Positions 32,743 through 58,608 of a stretch of 60,562 nt of DNA are shown here, piece after piece (positions within the stretch are counted from its first letter, which is position 1; every line of letters starts with the position of its first letter). Source of the DNA: Elusimicrobiota bacterium (GTDB lineage Bacteria; Elusimicrobiota; Elusimicrobia; UBA1565; UBA9628); the NCBI GenBank assembly GCA_027327915.1, contig DAHVWT010000005.1:1-60562 (forward strand), given 5' to 3'. A program made the position numbers and the translations under genes. The notes below the pieces were generated by a model. The model worked only from the letters and a program-made list of their open reading frames with translations. It searched no databases and was not told where the DNA came from.

Positions 32743-32771
32743 AGTCTAGCCCTGGTCCTCGAAATCCGCAA
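32743..32771 (-). promoter_or_regulatory. Candidate promoter TTGCGG-N17-TAGACT for the C1-type protease
   Basis: Minus-strand -35 at 32771-32766, -10 at 32748-32743, 17-bp spacer. Confidence 0.5.
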
Positions 32772-32808
32772 GGCCCCCCGGTCCCAGACGCCGGGGACCG
32801 AAAGGCCC
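32772..32808 (-). promoter_or_regulatory. GC-rich TTCGG element abutting the -35
   Basis: GGGCCTTTCGGTCCCCGGCGTCTGGGACCGGGGGGCC; similar to 40936-40972. Confidence 0.45.
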
Positions 32809-40910: not shown

Positions 40911-40935
40911 GACCCCTACGATATCAAATAAGGCA

Positions 40936-40972
40936 GGACCTTCGGTCCCCGGACATCTAGGCCGCTGGTCCC
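40936..40972 (+). promoter_or_regulatory. GC-rich TTCGG-hairpin element abutting the -35
   Basis: GGACCTTCGGTCCCCGGACATCTAGGCCGCTGGTCCC; contains stem GGACC-TTC-GGTCC. Confidence 0.45.
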
Positions 40973-41002
40973 TTGATTTTTTTGAAGATCCCCTGGTATG
41001 GT
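40973..41002 (+). promoter_or_regulatory. Candidate promoter TTGATT-N18-TATGGT
   Basis: -35 at 40973-40978, -10 at 40997-41002, upstream of ATG 41059 with AAGGAG RBS. Confidence 0.45.
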
Positions 41003-41058: not shown

Positions 41059-42273
41059 ATGAAAACCCGGCAAGGAAACTCCAAAGGATTGGCGGCGACG
41101 ATGGCGGCCTTGGGATGCGCGTTGGCGCTGGCCTCGGGACCCGCGTTGGCCGTGGGCGACTCCTCGTGGGACTCCCAGCACGGCGGCCCCCTCCAGGGCC
41201 TCGACCCTAAGAGCGTCGCTTCTCTCATGCAACAAATGCGGAACGCGAACTCCGCCCAGGCCCCAGCAAGCGGACCATCGGTCTTCCAAAGCTTCGACCA
41301 GGCCCGAGCGAACCTTTATAAGAAGGTTTCTCCCGCCGTGCTCCGGATTCTCACGATCGACGTGGGACAAACCTCTCTGGACGGATTCGAGCCGGGCGCC
41401 TCCCCGGAGTCAAAGATCGCCGCGCACCCCGTCTCGGGAGGCTCCGGCTTCATCATCCGGGAAGACGGCATCGTCGTGACCAACTACCACGTGGTCGCGC
41501 GCGATGTCGGCATCGACGCCGCGAAAAATCCCCTGGATCGCACGCACCGATTCATCGGGGAGTTCCTCAACGGCCAGAGAGTTCCCTTGGTCCCCATTGC
41601 CACCAACCGTGTCCTGGACTTGGCGCTTCTCAAGGCCGTCGTCGTCGACAAGACCGGACGCCCGGTCGACAGCCGATCCGTGCGATTCCCGACAGTCGCC
41701 CTCGGTGACGCCGCCAAGACCAAGATCGGGGAGACGGTCTTCGCCTTGGGCGCCCCGAGCATGCTCGCCGGCACGTTCACGATGGGAACCGTGACCTCGC
41801 AGCCGAGGCCGGAGCCCGAGGCCTGGAACGGCTGGGTTTCCCTCAGCAGCATGCCGCCGCAAGACGCCCTCAAGTATTTGAAGAACTTCAACAAATACAA
41901 CATGGGGGTCGAGGCGATTGTCCTTCAAGTTTCCGCGGCGAGCGATCACGGCAGCTCCGGAGGCCCTCTCTTCAACTCCCGCGGGGAAGTGATCGGCGTC
42001 GTCAACTCCGGGAACGTCCGGTCGACCCCCGTGAGCGTCGAGGACCTGGACAATCCCGACCATCGCTTGGCCGGAGTCACGGGCATCGCGACGAACGGCG
42101 TCAATTTCGCGATCGTCGCCAATCAAGTCAGCGGCTTCGTGAACGCGGTCCTCCCGAAGCTGGCCGGCGCTCCGGCCGGCGCCGTCATCGTGACGGGCAC
42201 GGGGATGGACCTCCAAAATCTGACCGCCCAGCAAATCGAAGAGGCCGCCGGCCGCATGGACTCCGCGCGGTAA
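41059..42273 (+). CDS. Exported trypsin-like (S1/HtrA-type) serine protease
   Basis: Signal peptide; GSGFIIREDGIVVTNYHVVARDVG, SDHGSSGGPLFNSRGEVIGVV. Confidence 0.85.
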   Translation: MKTRQGNSKGLAATMAALGCALALASGPALAVGDSSWDSQHGGPLQGLDPKSVASLMQQMRNANSAQAPASGPSVFQSFDQARANLYKKVSPAVLRILTIDVGQTSLDGFEPGASPESKIAAHPVSGGSGFIIREDGIVVTNYHVVARDVGIDAAKNPLDRTHRFIGEFLNGQRVPLVPIATNRVLDLALLKAVVVDKTGRPVDSRSVRFPTVALGDAAKTKIGETVFALGAPSMLAGTFTMGTVTSQPRPEPEAWNGWVSLSSMPPQDALKYLKNFNKYNMGVEAIVLQVSAASDHGSSGGPLFNSRGEVIGVVNSGNVRSTPVSVEDLDNPDHRLAGVTGIATNGVNFAIVANQVSGFVNAVLPKLAGAPAGAVIVTGTGMDLQNLTAQQIEEAAGRMDSAR

Positions 42274-56842: not shown

Positions 56843-57660
56843 CACTGCGATTCGCCAAGATGTCCGGGGCCGGCAACGACTTCATCCTCCTCGACGCCGC
56901 CCTCCGGCAAAACGGACACCCCATTCCGGCGCGGTTGGGGCTCGCGGCCCTGGCGAAGCGGCTTTGCGACCGGCGCGAGGGAATCGGCGGGGATGGACTC
57001 ATCCATTTAAGCCTCAGCGGGCGCGGCGCGCCGCGCATGCGTTATTTCAACGCCGACGGCTCCGAGGCCTTCTGCGGCAACGGCGCGCGCTGCTCGGCGT
57101 GGTGGGCGCGCCAAAGCGGCCGCACGAAGACCCGCGAATTCACCCTGCTCACCCTGGCCGGAGAGCTGCGGGCCCGGATCGTGGGGCGCGAGCGCGTCGC
57201 GATCCGGATGCCCGTTGTCGGCGCCGTGTCCGGACCGCGCAACCTCTTGATCGGCGGCCGCCGCCTCGCGGTCTACTCGGTCAACACGGGAGTCCCCCAC
57301 GCGGTCGTCGAAGCCGCCGATTTGAGCCGGTTTCCCGTCCATGAGATCGGCCGCGCCCTCAGGCGCCATCCCCTGTTCAAGCCGGAGGGAACGAACGCCG
57401 ACTTCGTCGCCTTCGGACGCCGGGAAATCGCCTTGCGCACCTACGAGCGGGGCGTCGAGGACGAGACGCTCGCCTGCGGGACGGGCGCGGCCGCCGCGGC
57501 GCTGGTCGGTCTCCATCTCGAAAAATGCCGCCCCCCCGTCTCCGTCCGCGTCAAAAGCGGGGCCCGTCTTCGGGTCCATTTCGGGACAGAGGGCGATCCC
57601 GCCGCGTTGTGGCTTGAAGGCCCGGCGCGGACCGTTTATCAAGGAAGCATCCGCCTGTGA
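56827..57660 (+). CDS. dapF: Diaminopimelate epimerase
   Basis: FAKMSGAGNDFILLD, GGDGLIHL, YFNADGSEAFCGNGARC, VEDETLACGTGAAAAAL. Confidence 0.95.
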   Translation: MGRPLTLRFAKMSGAGNDFILLDAALRQNGHPIPARLGLAALAKRLCDRREGIGGDGLIHLSLSGRGAPRMRYFNADGSEAFCGNGARCSAWWARQSGRTKTREFTLLTLAGELRARIVGRERVAIRMPVVGAVSGPRNLLIGGRRLAVYSVNTGVPHAVVEAADLSRFPVHEIGRALRRHPLFKPEGTNADFVAFGRREIALRTYERGVEDETLACGTGAAAAALVGLHLEKCRPPVSVRVKSGARLRVHFGTEGDPAALWLEGPARTVYQGSIRL

Positions 57661-58607
57661 GCGCCCGCCGGATGCCCACGCCCCTCGCCGGCGTCTTTAC
57701 CGCGCTCGCGACGCCGTTTCGATCCGACTTCTCCCTCGACCTCCCCGCTTTCCGCCGGCTGATGCGCCGGCAGGCCGCCGGAGGCGTGGCGGGAGTCGTG
57801 ATCGGCGGCTCGACGGGAGAGGGGAGCGCGCTTGAACCCGAGGAGCTGTCGGCCCTCATCCGCGCCGCCGTCGCGCAAGCCGGAGACAGGCTCCTCGTGA
57901 TCGCCGGGGTGGGCGTCAACAACACGGCGGCGGCCGTCCGGCTCGCGAAAAGAGCCCAGTCCGCGGGAGCGCGGGCGCTTCTTGTCACCGCTCCTTCCTA
58001 TAATAAGCCGCCCCAGCGCGGCATCGTCGCCCATTACTCCTCCATCTCCAGGGCCACTCGGATTCCGATCATCGTCTACAACATTCCAGGCCGGACGGCG
58101 GTCAACATCGAGCCCGAGACGGCGGCCCGCATGGCCCGGGAGATTCCCCGCATCGTCGCCGTCAAGGAATCCTCGGGAAGCCTCGATCAGGCAAGCGAGA
58201 TCCTGCGCCTCGCGCCGCCCGGCTTTTCCCTGCTCGCGGGAGACGACTCCCTGATCCTCCCCATGCTCTCCATCGGCGCCCGCGGGGCGGTGAGCGTCCT
58301 GTCCAATCTCGCGCCGGAAAGCGTCGTGGAGCTTTATCGGGCGGCGCTCGGCGACGACTTCAGGCGGGCGCGCGAGCTCCATCTCGGGATGCTTCCCGCC
58401 GTCAAGGCCCTCTATTTGGAGTCAAACCCAATCCCTCTCAAGGCCGCCCTGGCCTTGAGGGGTCTTTCCAGGGACGTCCTGCGTCCGCCGCTCGTCCCCC
58501 TCTCCGCCGAGAAGCGCGCGCTTCTCAAGGCGCTTGGATCTGGGCCCTTCGGCCCATACATCCTCCACCCGAAAGACACTTACGCTTCGGAGAAGTCCGT
58601 GATATGA
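57657..58607 (+). CDS. dapA: 4-hydroxy-tetrahydrodipicolinate synthase
   Basis: GVFTALATPF, GGSTGEGSALEPEE, PSYNKPPQRGIVAHY, IIVYNIPGRTAVNI, IVAVKESSG. Confidence 0.94.
   Translation: MSARRMPTPLAGVFTALATPFRSDFSLDLPAFRRLMRRQAAGGVAGVVIGGSTGEGSALEPEELSALIRAAVAQAGDRLLVIAGVGVNNTAAAVRLAKRAQSAGARALLVTAPSYNKPPQRGIVAHYSSISRATRIPIIVYNIPGRTAVNIEPETAARMAREIPRIVAVKESSGSLDQASEILRLAPPGFSLLAGDDSLILPMLSIGARGAVSVLSNLAPESVVELYRAALGDDFRRARELHLGMLPAVKALYLESNPIPLKAALALRGLSRDVLRPPLVPLSAEKRALLKALGSGPFGPYILHPKDTYASEKSVI
58542..58579 (+). promoter_or_regulatory. TTCGG-hairpin element, possible third copy, overlapping the dapA 3' end
   Basis: GGGCCCTTCGGCCCATACATCC...; stem TGGGCC-CTTC-GGCCCA; 38 nt before -35-like TTACGC. 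Confidence 0.3.
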
Positions 58608-58608
58608 T
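58580..58608 (+). promoter_or_regulatory. Candidate promoter TTACGC-N17-TATGAT
   Basis: -10 at 58603-58608; 17-bp spacer; overlaps dapA stop. Confidence 0.4.

Follow-up and report, generated by a model that had tools for sequence, protein, structure and literature searches.

The targets of VraR and LiaR are cell-envelope stress genes, and the sites of DegU in Bacillus are AT-rich boxes of the GNCATTTA type. DegU belongs to the NarL family and governs degradative enzymes that are secreted, proteases among them (PMC9263151, PMC10464342). Its recognition helix carries the motif KTVKN (PMC9263151), with the same three residues as K179, K182 and N183 of DosR, which are reported as base contacts in the DosR-DNA complex (PMC4082495). 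The regulator DosR, or DevR, of Mycobacterium tuberculosis reads a dyad with the geometry GGGAC-N4-GTCCC and the consensus GGGACTTNNGNCCCT (PMC6448022), and its promoters contain closely packed, cooperatively bound sites, the proximal one situated at the -35 hexamer (PMC3029386). Here we describe protease promoters from a 60,562-nt stretch of an Elusimicrobiota genome (the window) as part of a system that resembles DegU by the class of its targets and DosR by its operator, and that is assigned to neither. A search of the open-access literature turned up no description of such a regulon.

Paired boxes ahead of protease promoters

The initial annotation placed a GC-rich TTCGG hairpin at a fixed distance ahead of the -35 hexamers of two protease genes. 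The placement is borne out by the coordinates and by conservation in orthologues, while the supposed hairpin of 37 nt resolves into a tandem pair of 14-bp dyads, or boxes, of the form RGGMC-N4-GGYCC, with a separation of 23-24 bp.

In copy A, which faces the gene of an exported S1 (Trypsin_2) protease (product P0001; 41059-42273, forward strand, ATG at 41059; signal peptide by rule), the element first described spans 40936-40972, and its last base directly adjoins the -35 hexamer TTGATT (40973-40978). The order read from the sequence at 40935-41002 is AGGACCTTCGGTCC-CCGGACATCT-AGGCCGCTGGTCCC-TTGATT-N18-TATGGT. Box 1, the distal box (AGGACCTTCGGTCC, 40935-40948, forward strand), is kept in the same-genus genome G001 as GGGACCTTTGGCCC and matches the profile described below; box 2, the proximal box (AGGCCGCTGGTCCC, 40959-40972, forward strand), lies 24 bp from box 1 at the paired spacing peak, adjoins the -35 hexamer and has AGGCCGTTGATCCC as its G001 counterpart. 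The predicted promoter occupies 40973-41002 on the forward strand, with 18 nt between the -35 hexamer and the -10 hexamer TATGGT (40997-41002), and both hexamers are identical in G001. The genes neighbouring copy A are divergent.

Copy B lies on the reverse strand ahead of the gene of an exported C1 (papain-like) protease (product P0002; 31504-32697, reverse strand; signal peptide by rule). Its 37-nt element, 32808-32772, directly adjoins TTGCGG (32771-32766), which is followed after 17 nt by TAGACT, and the strand reads GGGCCTTTCGGTCC-CCGGCGTCT-GGGACCGGGGGGCC-TTGCGG-N17-TAGACT from 32808 to 32743. Box 1 (GGGCCTTTCGGTCC, 32795-32808), which is also a profile match, box 2 (GGGACCGGGGGGCC, 32772-32785), which is 23 bp from box 1 and adjoins the -35 hexamer, and the predicted promoter (32743-32771) are all kept in the two same-genus genomes G001 and G002. 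Within the 2-Mb genome the 12-mer CCTTTCGGTCCC has just two occurrences, one in copy B and one in a third full copy, copy C (contig C44, position 28547), ahead of an exported subtilase (S8).

For copies A, B and C, the boxes, their spacing and the -35 and -10 hexamers are kept in the same-genus orthologues while the spacers between the boxes drift. The inter-box spacer is 9-10 nt, the proximal box of copies A and B ends where the -35 hexamer begins, and the -10 hexamer comes 37-38 bp after the proximal box starts; the separation of the boxes is about two helical turns, and box 2 is more degenerate than box 1. Copies A and B exceed what chance would produce, as judged by the 12-mer found only twice in the genome, the profile E-values and the conservation in orthologues, the last of which does not depend on the choice of profile seeds.

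A one-box pattern run on three same-genus genomes yielded further paired promoters. The flanks of 27 sites picked by that pattern alone were then probed with the published DosR consensus GGGACTTNNGNCCC (PMC6448022), which is independent of these promoters, and second boxes fell at +24 (six sites), -24 (three), +23 (two) and -25 bp (one), against 0.09 per offset elsewhere. Within 23-25 bp on either side, 12 second boxes were seen and about 0.6 were expected (Poisson P ~1e-12), and since some of the 27 sites are orthologue pairs and not independent, the true P is weaker, though the peak is sharp. The -10 scores of these sites showed modest peaks 61 nt (z 2.4) and 37 nt (z 1.9) from the box start, where the -10 hexamer should fall when the pattern has picked out box 1 or box 2, respectively. 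With one mismatch allowed, the one-box pattern showed no enrichment over a reversed control, so single boxes are not diagnostic, and pairing and phase are. The exact 12-mer CCTTTCGGTCCC was too restrictive a probe outside its own genome, where it likewise showed no enrichment over a reversed control and most matches in relatives looked unrelated to promoters.

A weaker copy had also been annotated at 58542, and this claim stood in part: a box is present at the right phase to a -10 hexamer, with no second box beside it and a profile E-value of 0.14. The possible single box, GGGCCCTTCGGCCC (58542-58555, forward strand; unconfirmed), lies 61 nt ahead of TATGAT (58603-58608), as compared with 62 nt for box 1 of copy A and 60 nt for box 1 of copy B; no partner box can be read in the sequence. 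It falls within the 3'-terminal part of a DapA-like open reading frame (57657-58607), and behind it is the gene of an exported protein with no Pfam match (P0003; 58663-59289, forward strand; signal peptide by rule). Homology to G001 ends 13 nt upstream of the box, within the end of the DapA-like gene, and at the place corresponding to 58529-58607 of the window the box and the exported gene are absent from G001, as if the two had entered one lineage together or disappeared from the other. The site may be a lineage-specific single-box promoter. In other genera, S8 protease genes have a single box directly ahead of an extended -10 element (TGC-TANNNT), which by its sequence appears to be an alternative promoter arrangement; it was seen at loci L072, L075, L076, L078, L083 and L084.

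Targets in the genome and the family

A profile, R1, of 71 positions was made from 17 such promoters as seeds, copies A, B and C among them; its E-values are rough. Within the window it matched copy A at E 1.6e-11 and copy B at E 7e-12, and nothing further below E 0.037. The genome as a whole, a metagenome-assembled genome of 164 contigs and 91% completeness, has nine matches at E < 0.01, copies A and B and seven more. The predicted targets are the S1 protease (A), the C1 protease (B), the S8 protease (C), two PLD-domain proteins (E and F, the latter identified via its G001 orthologue, its own copy being interrupted by a contig end), an RNase T2 (I), two exported proteins without a Pfam match (H and J) and a HIT-family protein (K). 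Eight of the nine matches lie ahead of proteins that are exported according to a crude signal-peptide rule, for which the background in the window is 4 to 16 of 47 genes, varying with the permissiveness of start choice. Looser box matches precede the genes of a further S1 protease (M) and a metallopeptidase of the MA clan (N), both exported, and of one more exported protein.

Target K is not exported and has a conserved box pair at odd spacing. The locus is at positions 20001-20098 of contig C74 in the genome studied here (G000; locus L172) and at positions 6665-6761 of contig C30 in G001 (L173), and it is the only clear non-exported target in the genus. One of the best paired-box promoters, found in all three same-genus genomes (L139, L120 and L156), stands ahead of the gene of an exported protein of at least about 490 amino acids with no Pfam match, and this conserved protein is possibly a new exported enzyme.

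Across the host family, R1 matches (E <= 0.01) were present in 40 of 44 genomes and in 12 of 12 genera. Twenty of the 27 family loci that were read lead to proteins with signal peptides by rule, and four further loci (L212, L217, L218 and L233) were judged by eye to encode exported proteins. The products include Endonuclease I, a protein with an alpha-amylase domain, a lytic transglycosylase, an M48 peptidase, and TPR and ankyrin proteins, and many have no Pfam match. Among the targets that can be recognised, degradative enzymes are the majority. These counts, together with the eight of nine matches in the genome itself, agree with the exported-protein regulon predicted in the initial annotation, and of the two alternatives offered there, "binding site" and structured upstream element, the former fits; instead of a random spread, coding or 3' positions, or a loss of -35 phase, the paired matches were phased and upstream of signal-peptide genes.

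At loci L209, L210, L211, L215, L225, L226 and L227 of family relatives the ATG follows the -10 hexamer of a paired-box promoter by only about 5-8 nt. With so short a distance, the transcripts for many of these exported proteins are expected to have no leader or almost none.

Candidate regulator

P0005 is a two-domain response regulator with a receiver domain (PF00072) and a GerE domain (PF00196), both above cut-off. Exactly one GerE-domain protein is encoded in each of the three genomes of the host genus (G000, G001 and G002), and in the family's other genera the number ranges from one to eight. The recognition helix of P0005, IKTVKNHLNSVFQKL, aligns without gaps to that of DevR (3c3w), with K179, K182 and N183 identical, and all of the P0005 orthologues that were read retain KTVKN or KTIKN. 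These contacts do not fix site specificity, as DegU has them too. Over the whole length of the protein, VraR and LiaR are the closest solved relatives, with VraR first (E 8e-39), but they have KTVKT in the recognition helix where P0005 has KTVKN. The agreement of box geometry, promoter position and contact residues makes P0005 the best candidate reader of the boxes.

No box was found within 250 bp upstream of the P0005 gene in G000, G001 or G002, and G004 has one weak candidate. A search for HisKA_3 kinases (PF07730; the NarX, DosS and DegS type) found none in six genomes (G000, G001, G002, G004, G006 and G036), five of which, all but G036, have GerE response regulators, while control genomes matched. 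In G000 this absence could be an assembly gap, though the five other genomes agree.

Comparison with described systems

The operator resembles that of DosR. The dyad geometry is the same, and the boxes fit the DosR-type dyad, for which GGGACTTNNGNCCCT or the weak RRGNCYWNNGNMM is the pattern: box 1 of copy D in G002 reads GGGACTTTTGGCCC, and the consensus used as probe picks up the partner boxes; as in DevR promoters, two sites are closely packed, here 23-24 bp apart, with the proximal one at the -35 hexamer, and the base-contact residues are identical in P0005. The systems differ in that the proximal DevR site overlaps the -35 hexamer whereas box 2 in the host genus adjoins it and other genera have a lone box just ahead of an extended -10, and in that the targets here are exported hydrolases, exported proteins without assigned function and one HIT protein rather than hypoxia or dormancy genes. 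Furthermore, the host, which is no mycobacterium, has no box at the regulator's own gene through which autoregulation could act in this genus, and no partner kinase of the DosS/DosT type was detected.

With DegS-DegU the system shares its target class, secreted degradative enzymes, whose control by P0005 is predicted here, as well as K, K and N at the same positions of the recognition helix. It differs in the GC-rich dyads that take the place of AT-rich sites, and in that no DegS-type (HisKA_3) kinase was detected.

Alternative explanations and proposed mechanism

We consider it probable, from the sequence evidence assembled above, that the boxes are an operator pair through which P0005, the sole NarL/FixJ-type regulator, activates a regulon of exported enzymes. 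Dimers of P0005 would most likely occupy the two boxes from the same side of the helix, and the bound protein would recruit a sigma-70-type RNA polymerase and thereby switch on a regulon of exported proteins, which in the host genus would comprise the S1, C1 and S8 proteases, PLD-type enzymes, RNase T2 and exported proteins of unassigned role. We infer all three of the parts given to P0005, namely binding, activation and control by phosphorylation.

The alternative that survives best, although we think it improbable, is that some DNA-binding protein other than the GerE regulator, possibly a repressor, reads the pair. Dyads of this sort might serve other dimeric regulators as well, specificity is not settled by contact residues alone, and the missing box at the P0005 gene in the host genus and the lack of a detectable HisKA_3 kinase would both fit a reader other than P0005. 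Against this, the dyad geometry is identical to that of DosR and the single GerE protein carries the DosR contact residues; moreover, a proximal site that ends at the -35 hexamer and leaves the -10 hexamer uncovered would, going by established promoter architecture, be typical of activators.

That the boxes are instead an intrinsic promoter feature, an upstream element contacted by RNA polymerase or by an alternative sigma factor, seems very unlikely. Their strict phase to the -35 and -10 hexamers is also compatible with polymerase contacts, but a GC-rich dyadic sequence does not resemble AT-rich UP elements, and the -10 boxes are ordinary TATAAT-like ones. The single boxes directly before an extended -10 in some family promoters further indicate that the position of the box moves relative to the promoter.

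We give still less credence to a structured RNA, whether hairpin, attenuator or terminator with a TTCG loop. The sequence GGACC-TTC-GGTCC of copy A could fold as a short perfect stem, but the element is upstream of the -35 hexamer and so would not be transcribed from the phased promoter, and the genes flanking copy A diverge. Across 17 sequences, the stem of box 1, the only stem covered by this count, had 0 compensatory changes and its fourth pair was unpaired in nine of the 17; there was also no Rfam match, and the RNA hairpin was rejected on the lack of stem covariation and of an Rfam match. Least credible of all is a dispersed repeat, REP-like or mobile, that came to lie near genes by accident, as the copies, numerous as they are per genome and across genomes, have freely varying spacers between constant boxes, strict orientation and phase to promoters, and targets from unrelated protein families.

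Returning to the operator pair read by P0005, a broader proposal goes with it, which we put forward tentatively and rate at slightly less than an even chance: a DosR-type operator code might serve, outside the Actinobacteria, as a family-wide master switch for exported, mainly degradative proteins, read in the host genus by the sole NarL-type regulator, which would lack a HisKA_3 kinase and thus have an unconventional input.

Significance

The analysis supplies an unstudied bacterial family with a predicted regulon whose operator and target class are defined and for which there is one candidate regulator; its predictions are testable in vitro starting from sequence. The predicted target class includes exported proteases, nucleases, an RNase, an amylase, a cell-wall lytic enzyme and proteins without assigned function, so that the promoter alone may offer a route to finding new exported enzymes. 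The findings suggest that outside its mycobacterial setting, where it is known from dormancy, this operator has been connected to the secretion of degradative enzymes.
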